Source: a virus
Strand: one strand, 5' to 3'
Length of the DNA: 22,259 nucleotides
IMG/VR virus record: IMGVR_UViG_3300035698_003757
Location: 1 to 22,259 of that record
A model generated the notes under the pieces. The model did not search any database and was not told where the DNA came from. It saw only the letters and a list, made by a program, of their open reading frames with translations. The translations under genes were made by a program, and so were the position numbers. The first letter of the stretch is position 1. Each line of letters begins with the position of its first letter. Of this stretch, positions 3,575 through 9,732 are shown in pieces.

Positions 3575-4398
3575 TAGAATTGATCCCCCTGTTTCCACGC
3601 TTGATACGCGTAATCTCGTTCATTCGCAGCTTGATCCGCGTCATTCCATATGTTAGTCGCGTTCATGTCACCCTCATATGTGGCACTGGCACCGTAATTT
3701 CGTTCATTTCCTATCTGCTGATTACCGGCAAATCTATTTTGAGCAGAGTCTCTTGCCCCTTGCATAGAGTACCCAGCCATTTTATCAGCAGCACCTAAGC
3801 CCTGACCTGATAAGTTTTGTAATGGGTTAAGAGAATCATAGTACCTATTTAGGAATTTATCATACTCATTGGAAGCATAGTCCTGAGAATACCGTGCTGT
3901 ACCCTTTAAAGCTGCGCCACTTAGCACTCCACCACGTGCCGCTGCTGATCGTTCAAGAGCCTTCTGCCCCTCTTTAAGTCGAAATTGGTATCCAGGACCT
4001 TCTTTAAAATCACCCGGGCCATCGGAAATTTTCTTCTGTAGTTGACCGAGTGCATCTAAACCAGCTTGCCTCCATGGATTAACATCCGACCTCGCTTGAG
4101 CTGTAGCAGCCGTTGTATCTGCTTGTGCATCAACCATACTCTGTTGATACATTTTAATATTTTCATCTGACGCCGCACGTCTTTTAGCAGCTGCTGCTTT
4201 TGAGGAGTCTGCTGCTTTTCGAGCTGCTTTTTTAGCTCTACCCGCCGCTTTACGCTGTGTGGATTTAGAATCTTTACGCGCTTTAGCTAACTGCGCTCTT
4301 TTCGCTTGGAGTTTCCTATAAGAATCCCCAGGCCAACCGTGTCCCGGTATATGCTGGCTCTCAAGGTCTGATATTTCTTGTTCTAATTTTGTTGTCAT
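3574..4398 (-). CDS. DNA transfer / ejection protein, P22 gp7-like
   Basis: The protein has 274 aa. Residues about 30-85 are a Lys/Ala/Arg-rich helical region. A Gln/Ala-rich region then leads into the recognisable block NPWRQAGLDALGQL, PGYQFRLKEGQKALERSAAARGG and GTARYSQDYASNEYDKFLNRY. This 'W..AG..AL..L ... F....G..AL.RSAAARGG..SG' pattern is typical of phage DNA-transfer proteins of the gp7 group, which leave the virion to help DNA cross the envelope. The N-terminus starts MTTKLEQEISDLE at ATG 4398, which touches the stop of the upstream gene (ATGA-type overlap). The downstream ejection gene starts on its stop codon. Family assignment is fairly sure; the exact role in this phage is inferred. 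Confidence 0.82.
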   Translation of the reverse strand: MTTKLEQEISDLESQHIPGHGWPGDSYRKLQAKRAQLAKARKDSKSTQRKAAGRAKKAARKAADSSKAAAAKRRAASDENIKMYQQSMVDAQADTTAATAQARSDVNPWRQAGLDALGQLQKKISDGPGDFKEGPGYQFRLKEGQKALERSAAARGGVLSGAALKGTARYSQDYASNEYDKFLNRYYDSLNPLQNLSGQGLGAADKMAGYSMQGARDSAQNRFAGNQQIGNERNYGASATYEGDMNATNIWNDADQAANERDYAYQAWKQGDQF

Positions 4399-4736
4399 TA
4401 TGCCACCTCATACCCGGAAATTCTACAACCAATTTTATAAGTAGTAGATGCTACCATTGATATAAACCCCTCTGCTTCTAATTCATGATTTTCCATACTG
4501 TCACAAACCCAAGTTTCACCAGGTGCTAACGCTTTTTCTTTTACAATCCTATTAGCATAACCACTTATCATTCCGGATGAAACTAAATTTATAGTTACCG
4601 TTACCACCGCCGTATGATCGTTTACAAAGGTGACTTTTTTTATTACAGCCCTTGTGCTCTCTGGTACTGTATAGTACGTAGCTACCGCATCCGTAATTCC
4701 TACTCCTGCTACCATTTCTTTTAGCAATGTCGTCAT
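4398..4736 (-). CDS. Small virion structural protein (beta-sandwich-like), unknown role
   Basis: The 112-aa protein MTTLLKEMVAGVG... has alternating beta-strand character, with segments such as RAVIKKVTFVNDHTAVVTVTI and a conserved-looking LAPGETWVCDS turn. These are typical of small Ig-like virion proteins in this type of phage, but no named family can be assigned. It starts two bases after the duplicated hub domain ends, and its stop overlaps the gp7-like start. It occupies the place where P22 has gp26/gp14, yet nothing in it looks like a trimeric needle. No Shine-Dalgarno is obvious; the leader just before ATG (TTTTAAAT) is copied from the preceding gene junction, so translation probably depends on coupling. 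Confidence 0.7.
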   Translation of the reverse strand: MTTLLKEMVAGVGITDAVATYYTVPESTRAVIKKVTFVNDHTAVVTVTINLVSSGMISGYANRIVKEKALAPGETWVCDSMENHELEAEGFISMVASTTYKIGCRISGYEVA

Positions 4737-4738
4737 AT

Positions 4739-5200
4739 TTAAAACCTACACTTTCTTAGTATACTGTACGCTCCTATCAAAACCACTTTAACAGGCGCAG
4801 AAATTGTTAATTCATATATCCGGTTTCTACTCTTACCGAGTGACCTCCATATAGCCCGTATCCCTCGTTCCCCATATTCCCCTATGCTAACTGCTTCTCC
4901 GGTACTAAAGGTATTACCACCATCATTAGACCATTTAAGTGTAGCTTCAGGAGCAGTACCCCCAGAGAGACCTACTCCAGCTTCAAATTCTATTTCAATT
5001 TTACTATGAAGGACATTATTTTTTTCATTATTAATTATCTGAGTCCGACGTACTCTCGTAATCGCGTCCCCATTGTCAGTGTAGGTATCCATATTAAGCG
5101 CATACAATTTACCATTAGCTTTATCGCCTATTATGGTTTTACCATTAAATTGGATACCACCAGTTATACCCGTCGCACCCCTATGTCGCCCTTGTGCCAT
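4739..5200 (-). CDS. Free-standing duplicate of the gp10-type hub C-terminal domain
   Basis: The 153-aa protein begins MAQGRHR and corresponds along its whole length to residues 354-503 of the preceding gene product; by eye about 108 of 150 aligned residues are identical. Shared blocks include LYALNMDTYTD, AITRxRRTQI, PEATLKWS, AIWRSLGKSR and YELTISAPVK. In P22-type phages this domain (nxDgxT/W-type beta sandwich following the propeller) is the C-terminal part of the gp10 hub protein. Even the gene junction is duplicated: both copies end KCRF, TAA, AT, then ATG of the next gene. No Shine-Dalgarno is visible. It may assemble with the truncated hub protein from 6711-8792. Duplication is seen directly; the role is inference. 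Confidence 0.8.
   Translation of the reverse strand: MAQGRHRGATGITGGIQFNGKTIIGDKANGKLYALNMDTYTDNGDAITRVRRTQIINNEKNNVLHSKIEIEFEAGVGLSGGTAPEATLKWSNDGGNTFSTGEAVSIGEYGERGIRAIWRSLGKSRNRIYELTISAPVKVVLIGAYSILRKCRF
4742..5194 (-). repeat. Duplicated gp10 C-terminal domain, copy 2
   Basis: This is the second copy, carried by the stand-alone 153-aa gene. One extra residue is present in the loop after IIGD. Differences are spread along the domain, so the duplication is not brand new. Confidence 0.85.
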
Positions 5201-5202
5201 AT

Positions 5203-6714
5203 TTAAAATCTACACTTTTTTAGTATACTATAAGCACCTATTATAATAATCTTAACAGGCGCAGAAATTGTTAATTCATATATTCTATCCCTACTTTTAC
5301 CAAGCGACCTCCATATGGCTCTTACTCCCCAATCATCATACTCACCTATACTCGTCGTTTCTCCATCACTAAATGTGTCACCATTATCATCTGACCATTT
5401 AAGCGTTGCCTCCGGGTCATCCCCCCCAGAAATACCTACTCCCGCTTCAAATTCTACTTCAATTCTATTATGTAGTATATTAATCTCATCATCACCAACA
5501 ATCTGTGTTCTTCGTATTCTTGTAATTGCCTCCCCTCCGTCAGTATATGTATCCATGTTAAGCGCATATAACACACCGACATTATCGCCTATTACGGTTT
5601 TCTCATTAAAAAGTACACCACCATCTATACCTACTATGCCCCTGTGCCGTCCTTGAGAGGGAGCATATAGCATAATGGAGTGCTTCCCTCCTATCCCCTG
5701 AGCCACACTGTTAACCTTCCATGTGCCAACTTGTGTTAGTGTGGTTCTGTCGACTTCATCACCTAATCCTAATTGACCATAGTAATTACGCCCAGTTGCC
5801 CATAATGTTCCATCAGTCTTAACCGCCATTGTATGCTGATGCACACAAGACACTATATCCCACACCGACAAACTGCCAACCTGTGTAAACTCAAGTACCT
5901 TAGTGGTTCCACCAAGTCCTAACTGCCCGTACGTACCACTCCCAGTAACCCATAGAGTACCGTCAGTCTTAGTAGCCATAGTGCATGTAATACCACAAGA
6001 AACTGACGCCCACGTTGTTAGCGCACCAACTTGTGTTAGTGTGGTTCTCTCAACTTCGTCACCTAACCCTAATCTTCCATCCGTACCCTCCCCCGTAGCC
6101 CACAATGTACCATCAGTCTTAATTGCCATTGTATGCAAATCACCACAAGCAACAGAGCTCCAGGTTGTTAGCGCACCAACTTGTGTGAATTCCAGCCTAT
6201 CAGCACCCCCACCTAACCCTAATTGCCCTGAACTATCTCGACCAGTAGCCCATAATGTACCGTCGGTTCTAATTGCCATTGTGGATAATGACCCACAAGA
6301 GACCGAAGCCCATTCAGATGACGCTCCAGCTTGAGTAAATGAGTATTTAGTATATAGGTCACCGACTCCTAATTGACCATAGCCATTAGCGCCTGTAGCC
6401 CATATAGTACCGTCCGTTTGTATAGCTACTGAGTGATAATACCCACAAGCAACAGCACTATAGGTTGCCACTACGCTAACTATTGTAAACTCTTTTAACG
6501 TAAAAGCACCCGAGATACCTAATTGTCCATCAAGGTTCCATCCAGTAGCCCATAGTTTACCATCGGATTTAATAGCCATAGAATATAGCTCACCAATTGC
6601 AATATAACTCCACGTTGCCAACGTTCCCGCTTGAGTGAATTCAGTTTTGCTAAGCTTGTCTCCAATACCTAATTGCCCAACAGAACCGGAACCAGTACCC
6701 CATAACGTAGTCAT
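5203..6714 (-). CDS. RCC1-repeat beta-propeller fused to gp10-type hub C-terminal domain
   Basis: The protein has 503 aa from ATG 6714, which overlaps the stop of the upstream hub gene (ATGA) and has GGAAGAG six bases upstream; an ATG at 6729 would add five residues. Residues 1-353 contain seven ~50-aa RCC1 repeats with the motif LWATG....GQLGLGD ... W..V.CG..HTMAIKTDGT, enough for one closed seven-bladed propeller. Residues 354-503 (QGRHR to KCRF) are the gp10-type C-terminal hub domain. In homologous hub proteins I would expect QGRHR to follow the WHEW motif that ends the upstream gene, so the propeller seems to have been inserted at, and to have split, the hub gene. The propeller may be an exposed binding domain on the tail; that is inference. 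Confidence 0.85.
   Translation of the reverse strand: MTTLWGTGSGSVGQLGIGDKLSKTEFTQAGTLATWSYIAIGELYSMAIKSDGKLWATGWNLDGQLGISGAFTLKEFTIVSVVATYSAVACGYYHSVAIQTDGTIWATGANGYGQLGVGDLYTKYSFTQAGASSEWASVSCGSLSTMAIRTDGTLWATGRDSSGQLGLGGGADRLEFTQVGALTTWSSVACGDLHTMAIKTDGTLWATGEGTDGRLGLGDEVERTTLTQVGALTTWASVSCGITCTMATKTDGTLWVTGSGTYGQLGLGGTTKVLEFTQVGSLSVWDIVSCVHQHTMAVKTDGTLWATGRNYYGQLGLGDEVDRTTLTQVGTWKVNSVAQGIGGKHSIMLYAPSQGRHRGIVGIDGGVLFNEKTVIGDNVGVLYALNMDTYTDGGEAITRIRRTQIVGDDEINILHNRIEVEFEAGVGISGGDDPEATLKWSDDNGDTFSDGETTSIGEYDDWGVRAIWRSLGKSRDRIYELTISAPVKIIIIGAYSILKKCRF
5206..5655 (-). repeat. Duplicated gp10 C-terminal domain, copy 1
   Basis: This segment is paralogous to 4742-5194, about 70% identical at protein level by eye. 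It includes the same 3' end and gene junction (TGTAGATTTTAAATATG against TGTAGGTTTTAAATATG). Confidence 0.85.
5656..6714 (-). repeat. Seven tandem RCC1-type repeats (~150 bp period)
   Basis: The DNA encoding residues 1-353 of the fusion protein is made of seven units of about 150 bp. The best-conserved part of each codes TMAIKTDGTLWATG and GQLGLGD. Several units share long runs at nucleotide level (for example the stretches around 5740 and 6040), which points to recent internal duplication or gene conversion. Confidence 0.85.
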
Positions 6715-8792
6715 GACAAACTCTTCCATTCATGCCATTGTTTATCTTTGACATTTACTACCCACGTTTGATCGGCTGTTGGGAAGGATATAACATAAAA
6801 TGTACGCCCCTCTAATGAATAAGTATACGCTAAAGCATCTTCTACCGTTGTGTATGTTGACATTTGGTATTCTATAGCTGAAGTAGAAATAGTTTCAAAA
6901 GAATACCCCCTATTCCTAATGATAGTTTTTTTATTAGATAACCAGTATAAAACACCCTCTATTTCCGCTACTGAAGTTAACGACCCGCACCCTATGTCCA
7001 AAATAGCACCTGGTACTCTTTGAAATGGAAAATCAGCGTTACCAGAGTTATAATATACTTCAGTTGAATACTCCCCAAAAAGCCATATATTTTGACGTGT
7101 CGTTCCAATGCCCACTAAAGTATCTGGTGATGCTTCGGCTGTTGCAAAATCAAGTGAATCCCATGCGTAACCGTCATATAGCCCTGATAATTGTATTTTA
7201 CCAGAATCTTTAACCGACACTATAAAATACCCATCAAAAAATACACAATCTGTTGCTTCTGGGAATTTATCTCCTTCTCCCGGTGAAACCATAGCCCTAT
7301 CGCCAGTACCGCTACCTGCTACAGCTATAAATTCTGTTCCACCAAAAGTTACACTTGTCCATGTGTTATCCGCAGGACTCGTTTCTGTTTTCCATGTAAC
7401 CCCGTCATCAGATGTCATTATTCTATTAGACGTACCCGTATCAGCTACCGCTGCAAAACTACTACCCCCATAAGCAACCGATTGCCAGTTATTATTAGCC
7501 GCGCTAACTCTTATAGTCCATGTAGTACCGTCTGGTGAAGTCATAACCCTATTTCCGGTACCTGAATCAGCTACCGCTACAAATAGCCCACCACCATATG
7601 TAACATCTGTCCATGTGTTATTAGCGGCACTAGCCCTTATAGTCCATGAGATTCCGTTAGTCGAGGTCATAACCCTATTTCCGGTACCTGTGTCGGCTAC
7701 AGCTACAAATGTTCCGTTCCCATACGTTACTGATTGCCAATCGTTATCCGCTGCGCTAGTTCTTGTTGTCCAAGTAATCCCATCTGGGGAGGTAAGAACC
7801 CTATTTCCTGTTCCTGTATCAGACACAGCTACAAATAGCCCGCCACCGTATGCAACACTTGTCCAGTCGTTATCTACAGTCGTTACCCTAAACGACCATG
7901 TAATTCCGTCTTCTGAAGTCATAGCGTTCCAGGAGACACCAGAATCAGATACAGCTACGAATGTTCCGTTTCCGTATGTAATATCTGTCCAATCGTTGTC
8001 AGCACGAATGGAAACAGTTTTACCTATTGCTGTTCCACTCGTGAGTGCGACGGCTAAGGTTACTGTATCCCCAGATGGTGTCCCATTAATAGTCGTCCAT
8101 TGGGTAGTACCGTCATCTAACTCTATCCCTATAGTATCCCCATCGGAAAGCCCGGTAATATCAACTACATCTATAGTAAGATTTGTTACTACCCCAGCTA
8201 CTTTAATAGTGGTAATAAAAATAGCGGGACTTACACCTATCGCCCAAGTAATTCCGTCCGAAGATGTCATTACCCTATTGACCGTACCGTCATTTGATAC
8301 CGCTACAAATAACCCATTCCCGTATGTAACTGCTACCCATGTGTTATCAGCAGCACTCGTTCCCGACGCCCAAACCGCCGCACCATCAGCTATGGCAGTT
8401 AGTAATCCGGTAGTTACAATATACCCTTTATCCGTACTGTCACAAATTAATAATTCTAAGCCATTGTTAGCCATTCCAACATGCCCAGTAGCAGTTGTTA
8501 TCGTCCCCAAACTTGTTTCTGTACCAGCGGAATCAATCTCGTATACTGTGTTTCCTACTATCGCATATAAATAATCCCCCATAACGTGCATACGCCTTAC
8601 TATAGCTGTTTTACCAGTATCACAGAAATCGTCTGTTCCCGGCGTCCCATACATAGCTATAGGTGTTTTACCCTCATTCTTGTCATAAACAGGAAACAAA
8701 TTTATACTCTGTTGGGCATTTATACTTTTCGATCTGCCCTCATATGCGCCACCAAGAAACGGGATTTGAATAGTAGTACCTGGTTCAGCCAT
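6711..8792 (-). CDS. Tail hub / packaged-DNA stabilisation protein, P22 gp10-like, C-terminally truncated and carrying an inserted repeat propeller
   Basis: The protein has 693 aa from ATG 8792, chosen because GGGGAGG lies five bases upstream and the previous stop is one base away. Residues 1-140 (IPFLGGAYEGRSKSINAQQSINLFP ... TPGTDDF) and 515-693 (FFDGYFIVS, LVGIGTTRQNIWLFG, STEVYYNSG, WHEWKSLS) fit gp10-type hub proteins that lie below the portal and gp4 and close the DNA channel. Between them, residues about 148-515 hold seven ~40-aa repeats (YGxGxFVAVxDxGTxNRVMTSxDGxTW). Residues 194-264 are a foreign module also found in the gp4-like neighbour. The usual C-terminal domain is missing here but encoded by the next two genes. 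Function is probable from family and order. Confidence 0.82.
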   Translation of the reverse strand: MAEPGTTIQIPFLGGAYEGRSKSINAQQSINLFPVYDKNEGKTPIAMYGTPGTDDFCDTGKTAIVRRMHVMGDYLYAIVGNTVYEIDSAGTETSLGTITTATGHVGMANNGLELLICDSTDKGYIVTTGLLTAIADGAAVWASGTSAADNTWVAVTYGNGLFVAVSNDGTVNRVMTSSDGITWAIGVSPAIFITTIKVAGVVTNLTIDVVDITGLSDGDTIGIELDDGTTQWTTINGTPSGDTVTLAVALTSGTAIGKTVSIRADNDWTDITYGNGTFVAVSDSGVSWNAMTSEDGITWSFRVTTVDNDWTSVAYGGGLFVAVSDTGTGNRVLTSPDGITWTTRTSAADNDWQSVTYGNGTFVAVADTGTGNRVMTSTNGISWTIRASAANNTWTDVTYGGGLFVAVADSGTGNRVMTSPDGTTWTIRVSAANNNWQSVAYGGSSFAAVADTGTSNRIMTSDDGVTWKTETSPADNTWTSVTFGGTEFIAVAGSGTGDRAMVSPGEGDKFPEATDCVFFDGYFIVSVKDSGKIQLSGLYDGYAWDSLDFATAEASPDTLVGIGTTRQNIWLFGEYSTEVYYNSGNADFPFQRVPGAILDIGCGSLTSVAEIEGVLYWLSNKKTIIRNRGYSFETISTSAIEYQMSTYTTVEDALAYTYSLEGRTFYVISFPTADQTWVVNVKDKQWHEWKSLS
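7248..8351 (-). repeat. Seven ~40-aa repeats (~120 bp period) inserted in the hub gene
   Basis: Units follow the pattern (D/N)N.W..V.YG.G.FVAV.D.GT.NRVMTS.DG.TW. The SxDGxTW part resembles, but is one residue shorter than, sialidase-type Asp boxes. Repeat 1 (residues 148-190) is separated from repeats 2-7 by the module at 8001-8213. Seven units suggest a seven-bladed propeller. Confidence 0.85.
8001..8213 (-). repeat. Module shared with the gp4-like gene, copy in the hub gene
   Basis: Residues 194-264 of the hub protein (IKVAGVV ... GIELDDGTTQWTTING ... ALTSGTAIGKTV) match residues 94-163 of the gp4-like protein. The core 8083-8133 is identical over 51 bp to 9323-9373. Confidence 0.9.
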
Positions 8793-8793
8793 A

Positions 8794-9732
8794 TTACCTC
8801 CCCATGCCCGGTTGAAAGAAAGTAGACGCCTTTTCAGCATCAAACGTACTGGCCATAAATTTGGTTGAAGCCGCTAAATTCTTTAACTCTCTATCTATCG
8901 GAACACCTGTTTTAAGAGCTATACGAACCGCTAAATTAAGAACTATAGTATCCGTCCACTCTGGAGGAAACTCGCCGTCATCATCGGTAGCATCAAAATC
9001 CATAATAGGTACTTTTACAGTCGCTTTTATACGTTGCTGTGGGTCAGCATTAGTAGGCCACACGTGTAAAATTCCGTTAGTTAATTGAGGATCATACCAA
9101 AATTGTGTTACTTGGCCTGTACTGTCCTTATCTGACAACGCCATATACTCTTCTTGTGATATTTTTATTAAAGGAGTTTCATTCTCACTTGAATTAACGT
9201 TACGGGCTTCTATTATTTCAAGAGGTCTTTGGGCTTTGGTTGTATACACATAAACATAATTATCTATAGCCGCAGCACTGGTAAGTGCGGTAGTTAAAGT
9301 TACTACATACGTTGCCGGATCGCCATTAATAGTCGTCCATTGGGTAGTACCGTCATCTAACTCTATCCCTATATAATCCGCATCAGAAATCCCGGTAAGA
9401 CTATCCACTGTAATAGTCGCATCAGCAGCTACCCCTGCTACTTTCATAGCAGTCATTACAACCCCTGATGTAGCAGTAAAATTGTCACCTGACGGTCCTA
9501 ATGAATATGTCTCACCTCCGGATTTAAGGAATAAAGTAACTTTCCTATTTAGCCACAGAAAAATACTCTCTGTCTGCCAGCCCTTTAGCATCATATTGAG
9601 AGTTACACCACCATCTGTAAGCTCCGTAGCCGTAAGTGTAGACCGTATATCAACCGCCCCTATGTACCTGTAGGCCTGTGTTATTAACTCGTCTCTATCT
9701 AAAACAAAATCATACGATCCAGAGGTAGTCAT
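8794..9732 (-). CDS. Head-to-tail adaptor / head completion protein, P22 gp4-like
   Basis: The protein has 312 aa starting at ATG 9732 on the stop of the upstream gene (TAATG), with GGGGG ten bases before. The N-terminal block (residues 11-55: DELITQAYRYIGAV ... LTATELTDGGVTLNMMLKGWQTE) follows the gp4 pattern 'L...A.r.lG.......t..e...a...Ln.ml..wq'. The C-terminal block (256-300: PPEWTDTIVLNLAVRIALKTG ... LKNLAASTKFMAS) also fits this family. Gp4-type proteins bind the portal after packaging and form the base for the hub. Residues 94-163 are a separate beta-rich module, common in the enlarged gp4 relatives of marine-type phages, and it was copied into the neighbouring hub gene. Fairly sure. 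Confidence 0.82.
   Translation of the reverse strand: MTTSGSYDFVLDRDELITQAYRYIGAVDIRSTLTATELTDGGVTLNMMLKGWQTESIFLWLNRKVTLFLKSGGETYSLGPSGDNFTATSGVVMTAMKVAGVAADATITVDSLTGISDADYIGIELDDGTTQWTTINGDPATYVVTLTTALTSAAAIDNYVYVYTTKAQRPLEIIEARNVNSSENETPLIKISQEEYMALSDKDSTGQVTQFWYDPQLTNGILHVWPTNADPQQRIKATVKVPIMDFDATDDDGEFPPEWTDTIVLNLAVRIALKTGVPIDRELKNLAASTKFMASTFDAEKASTFFQPGMGR
9244..9453 (-). repeat. Module shared with the hub gene, copy in the gp4-like gene
   Basis: The module encodes MKVAGVAADATITVDSLTG, then GIELDDGTTQWTTING and a TTALTSAAAIDN tail. It is identical to the hub-gene copy over 51 bp (9323-9373) and similar on both sides. Confidence 0.9.

Follow-up and report, generated by a model that had tools for sequence, protein, structure and literature searches.

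Split P22 gp10-type tail hub with recurrent exchange of a fused propeller at the break in uncultured short-tailed phages

The tail hub, a ring (nozzle, head closure) which plugs the tail, is one of the best-conserved components of short-tailed phages. In hubs of the P22 gp10 type the subunit is usually a single polypeptide, a feature not shown to be essential. Propellers are also found in phage proteins other than the hub; the receptor-binding protein of phi11 has a propeller domain which is putatively receptor-binding (PMC4901313), and RCC1 proteins were detected by mass spectrometry in the virions of W70 (PMC11370258) and GAP32 (PMC5259590). In SU10 the short fibre docks on blade 1, the velcro-closed blade (PMC9509320). 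In eukaryotes, the open propellers of Sec13 and Seh1 are closed by a seventh blade supplied by Sec31, Sec16, Nup85 or Sea2-4 (PMC9646525). The locus described here is a split variant of the P22 gp10-type hub rather than a typical member, with its subunit divided over two or three cistrons. A small-scale literature search, which had most subscription papers outside its reach, found no description of a gp10 hub that is split.

The window (the whole stretch of DNA that was analysed, 22,259 nts) derives from an uncultured short-tailed phage, and both the window and all of its split relatives are metagenomic. The genes discussed are all on the minus strand. Gene 1 (6711-8792; 693 aa from its ATG, with the C-terminal end QWHEWKSLS) encodes the N-part of the gp10/Hc3 tail hub; it matches phrog_578 (head closure Hc3, P22 gp10 family, 486 positions) at 1e-68, ending at position 325, and is matched by phmmer to the hubs 7eeq (Pam1) and 9vyg (Pan3). 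It is joined by an ATGA overlap to gene 2 (5203-6714; 503 aa, alternative ATG at 6729), which encodes an RCC1 propeller (5683-6714) followed by a hub C-part, termed C1 (5206-5655), matching positions 337-466 of phrog_578 at 2.4e-21. Gene 3 (4739-5200; 153 aa, N-terminus MAQGRHR) begins two bases past gene 2 and is a free hub C-part, C2, matching the same positions, 337-466, at 1.1e-28. The following small gene (4398-4736), which is conserved in the split relatives and bounds the cassette site at its far end, begins at the same distance from gene 3. Gene 1 and then gene 2 or 3 match this one PHROG in order, over most of the profile and as far as position 466 of 486, and so encode successive portions of a single hub. 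The head-tail adaptor gene (8794-9732; Pfam SU10_adaptor 5.5e-6, phrog_637 5.3e-6) lies upstream of the hub genes, as it does for gp10-type hubs, whose hexameric ring sits between adaptor and needle. Pfam RCC1 (PF00415) is found in gene 2 in seven stretches (134.7 bits, 1.5e-39), over the curated cutoff, which agrees with the seven repeats that a preliminary description of this DNA had placed ahead of the QGRHR domain; its ORF coordinates and reading frames for all three genes also hold on re-checking.

Relatives were obtained by scanning viral contigs with the C-part and the N-part as queries. The 85 distinct N-hubs obtained comprise 66 that are unsplit, 15 that are split and have a readable cassette, and four that are truncated; a separate scan of genome contigs gave two hubs only, both distant and unsplit. 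Each unsplit hub is encoded by one ORF, in most cases ~467 aa long, in which WHEW runs on into QGRHR or HR and which includes the C domain; in the nearest of them, L095/L157, the stretch GQWHEWSSLDGTTPEIHRATCG is read through. WHEWKSLS is therefore not the end of a complete family without a QGRHR domain, and the proposed split of a gp10-type hub at WHEW/QGRHR is confirmed. The split is seen in ~16 contigs from several metagenomes, and because it recurs in this way the overlap at 6711-6714 is not a frameshift error. Split relatives usually have an N-hub of about 315 aa and all fall in one corner of the N-hub tree. The unsplit L095 groups within the clade of split hubs, though at forks with weak support, which would allow for a reversion of the split or for two separate origins.

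The position of the break was mapped on an AlphaFold2 model of the unsplit sister L095 (pLDDT 87.9, pTM 0.89). This model matches the Pan3 hub (9vyg_M, Z 39.0), P22 gp10 (8eap_D, Z 37.7, 439 residues, 2.6 A) and the Sf6 and Pam1 hubs, followed by crAss001, SU10 and others, so that the gp10 fold of a seven-bladed propeller and a platform sandwich is seen on the unsplit sister. Lone WD40-type propellers align to residues ~42-355 of the model, and the break, which in this numbering comes after WHEW (309-312) and before HR (323), thus falls inside the hub's propeller. Blade 6 is at 277-316, blade 7 at 333-353 and the platform sandwich at 356-475 (blade numbers being our reading of strand order), and the gene boundary precedes blade 7. 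On this map, gene 1 is predicted to hold the velcro strand at its N-terminus and six of the seven blades, while the C-part would hold blade 7 (5557-5655 in C1, 5093-5194 in C2) and the platform beta-sandwich (4742-5092 in C2). A cut through the hub's central propeller was not expected. The hub had previously been described as modular, with a propeller plugged in, and the added propeller is indeed swappable, but the break lies within the hub's own propeller and not between whole domains. In an AlphaFold2 model of gene 2, the RCC1 propeller (residues 1-330) has pLDDT values of 76-97 by blocks and adopts the RCC1/UVR8 fold, with UVR8 as best PDB match (6dd7, E 2.5e-32, TMt 0.87). The C-part of the same model has pLDDT values of 30-60 from a thin alignment of 6 sequences; these low values may be due to the thin alignment or to a failure to fold alone.

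Two types of cassette follow the N-hub in split phages. In type A there is a gene of ~229 aa, I229, and then a kelch-like propeller fused to the C-part; in type B an RCC1 propeller fused to the C-part follows directly. I229 is present with the kelch-type split hubs, and none was found in the RCC1-only split hubs. Most split relatives carry I229 and kelch and not RCC1, and the idea that RCC1 caused the split is therefore not supported. Of the earlier suggestion that an RCC1 insertion had split the hub, the location stands, as the propeller does sit at the split, but the split itself is clade-wide.

The N-hub tree requires five changes between the RCC1 and the I229 plus kelch states among 15 split tips. 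Phages L096 and L097, from one metagenome, provide a natural experiment: their N-hubs are 94.6% identical in DNA and their readable C-parts 92.6%, and the cassettes between them are unrelated. The same pattern is found for L051/L054, L055/L066 and the window/L084. In pairwise DNA comparisons, similarity is lost at the stop codon of gene 1 or close to it. In three of the four pairs it returns at the QGRHR boundary or next to it; for L055/L066 it returns some 40 residues past this boundary, to which the breakpoint is therefore not pinned. N-part and C-part identities are correlated across 14 phages (r 0.79; 0/5000 Mantel permutations), including pairs with different propeller kinds (r 0.85). The RCC1 propeller does not track the N-part (r -0.16, only 10 pairs), and the kelch-like propeller does so partially (r 0.68, 36 pairs). 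Since the N- and C-parts co-diverge and RCC1 does not follow the N-part, the C-part stays with the phage backbone and the propeller is exchanged. That both the split and the exchange are real we consider very close to certain.

The kelch-like propeller is matched weakly by Pfam kelch (E 0.004-0.006) and strongly only by phrog_27227, and its name is therefore descriptive. I229 has marginal PHROG matches only, and its Pfam matches are without weight. Many unrelated viral contigs (L166-L243) have an I229 gene adjoining a kelch-like gene of phrog_27227; those of L170 and L178 have the kelch-like part in fusion with domains of tail proteins, and in L178 a tape-measure gene lies upstream. Given this pairing outside hubs and the tail-domain fusions, I229 and the kelch-like gene look like a travelling tail cassette, which probably has a role in adsorption, with I229 possibly the partner or chaperone of the propeller. 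Multi-copy RCC1 genes have been reported in Rak2-like phages, and one viral contig (L008, 1-9333) similarly has several RCC1 genes in a row, the majority ~375 aa long. RCC1 arrays of large phages were considered as a source of the RCC1 module.

Overall, we read the locus as a two-polypeptide gp10-type hub with a swappable propeller at the N-terminus of its C-part, and give this reading a probability of about 0.68. Gene 1 would provide six blades of the hub's seven-bladed propeller, and the second polypeptide would provide blade 7 and the platform, thereby closing the subunit of the ring in trans. This second polypeptide would have the plug-in site at its N-terminus, occupied by RCC1 in the window and by the kelch-like propeller, with I229, in sister phages. 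Recombination from the gene 1 stop to the C-part boundary would swap the propeller, the N- and C-parts keeping to the phage backbone, and the propeller on the outside of the ring would bind the host surface as a receptor-binding module. The positions of the ring, which would be hexameric by homology, could be filled by RCC1-C1 or by bare C2. Closure of the propeller in trans by the C-part is probable from homology and is backed by the co-divergence of N and C. As propellers occur in phage receptor-binding proteins and RCC1 proteins in virions, receptor binding is a fair reading for the attached propeller, and by this analogy we think it rather likely that it is such a module; nothing was found in support of the capping role that had been offered beside it. 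We put forward more tentatively that propellers may be closed in trans by a duplicable chain of blade and platform, so that different adhesive propellers could be fitted to the same ring and a single virion could combine bare positions with decorated ones, or positions bearing RCC1 with others bearing kelch. The recurrent swap at the cut points to a plug-in site for changing the phage's grip, and a plug-in point which keeps the ring and changes the propeller would explain how such phages alter attachment.

The window carries the C-part twice, and C1 and C2 share 72% identity in protein and 74.5% in DNA, in line with the figure of about 70% given before. The gene-end/TAAatATG junction occurs after both, as had also been described. 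The differences between them are mostly synonymous (dN 0.18, dS 1.05). At third codon positions the two are 57% alike, compared with 43-45% with L084, and this closeness would fit duplication in this lineage or gene conversion. C1, C2 and the C-part of L084 form a 100/99 clade, within which the protein tree gives no firm order. An origin of C1 in a distant phage, brought in with RCC1, is not supported, in view of this clade and of the third-position closeness. Gene 3 and the next gene are collinear with L084, matching its C-part and the gene after that (72% in DNA), and relative to L084 the window has RCC1-C1 in addition and is missing I229 and the kelch propeller. Judged from the sequences, gene 3 appears better read as the resident C-part, having lost its propeller, and RCC1-C1 as the added copy, than as the spare restoring the ancestral subunit that it was first taken for. 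Among the relatives examined, a bare C gene like gene 3 is seen in the window only. A second locus with two C-parts, in the order N, I229, kelch-C, RCC1-C', is inferred by joining L048 and L053 via a 78-bp exact overlap, and its C copies are about 90% identical in DNA. Loci of this kind may be intermediates in the exchange, or else functional hubs with two adhesins.

On balance a working role for gene 3 is favoured. Gene 3 might instead be a decaying, role-less relic of a replaced kelch-C, with RCC1-C1 alone entering the ring, as its collinearity with the C-part of the L084 kelch-C would allow and as the RCC1 phages with a visible downstream side (L054, L055 and L061) suggest by managing without a bare C. 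This is less likely, however, given that its frame is intact, that dN between C1 and C2 is far below dS and that its start is spaced from gene 2 in the same manner as its neighbour's start is from gene 3.

A receptor-binding propeller also has to be weighed against one acting as a structural cap or tail brace. The propellers of the T7 nozzle gate the channel (PMC6702177), hence structural roles are possible, but some five swaps for an unrelated propeller on an unchanged ring are not expected of a brace, and we regard this as distinctly improbable. Fewer grounds still exist for believing that the C-part and its propeller are a separate accessory virion protein which docks on the hub, the N-part being closed in another way. 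C-part polypeptides can duplicate and bear different domains, as such a protein might; against this, blade 7 and the platform are in one chain in the unsplit hubs and in the solved P22, Sf6, Pam1 and Pan3 hubs, the N- and C-parts co-diverge, and the C-part was found in every split phage whose two flanks are both visible. Finally, although the window is a linear metagenomic contig of 22 kb, an artefact of assembly or frameshift, in which one gene was broken by errors and two strains were joined, is hardly credible given the recurrence of the split across contigs and metagenomes, the mostly synonymous differences between the C copies and the second two-C locus of L048/L053.

Gene 1 contains a further propeller, absent from the preliminary description, which is an EPTP/Ycf48-like insert of seven repeats (7266-8396; Pfam EPTP 54.8 bits, cutoff 21) between hub blades 2 and 3. 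It is common to the window and its sister L084 only; none of the remaining split relatives has it. Within it, at 8004-8201, lies a domain of ~66 aa, matched by the adaptor profile at 6e-21; this type of domain (..TIDVDSITGLSDGDxIGIELDDGTTQWTTING.., ~66-90 aa) is present both there and in the adaptor gene (within 8794-9732), has several copies in L084, and seems to hop between adjoining tail genes. Hub loops take extra domains at several places. The unsplit hub of L104 (4613-8026, 1137 aa) has an insert of ~570 aa within its N-terminal part, the hubs of L123, L130 and L140 have inserts of ~75-85 aa between blades 2 and 3, and those of L080, L107 and L165 have inserts in the platform. An adaptor ORF of 533 aa in L048 (1968-3569) is by appearance internally duplicated.

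The hubs of P22 (gp10), Sf6, Pam1 and Pan3 are the closest described systems, and resemble this one in sequence family (PHROG 578), in fold (Z 35-39, for the unsplit sister) and in their place downstream of the adaptor gene. They differ in being one chain, whereas the window's hub is cut before blade 7 and has an extra propeller fused at the cut. The T7 gp12 and SU10 gp17 nozzles (PMC6702177, PMC9509320) likewise combine a seven-bladed propeller with a platform; they have nozzle domains inserted near blades 2-3 and fibres which dock at the velcro-closed blade or propeller end. However, each is one chain of far more distant sequence and has a docked fibre in place of a fused propeller. The SU10 nozzle domains are inserted close to where gene 1 has its EPTP insert, an equivalence that is approximate because blade numbering differs between papers. 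An RCC1 propeller in a phage hub had been presented as an apparently new architecture. RCC1 virion proteins as such are already known (PMC11370258, PMC5259590), but for the propellers of phi11, W70 and GAP32 neither fusion to the C-part of a hub nor exchange at a hub split is reported. The closure in trans that we infer here would work in the same way as that of Sec13 and Seh1, which are eukaryotic coat proteins and with which no homology is claimed; if true, the split hub would be a possible phage case of a propeller closed in trans.
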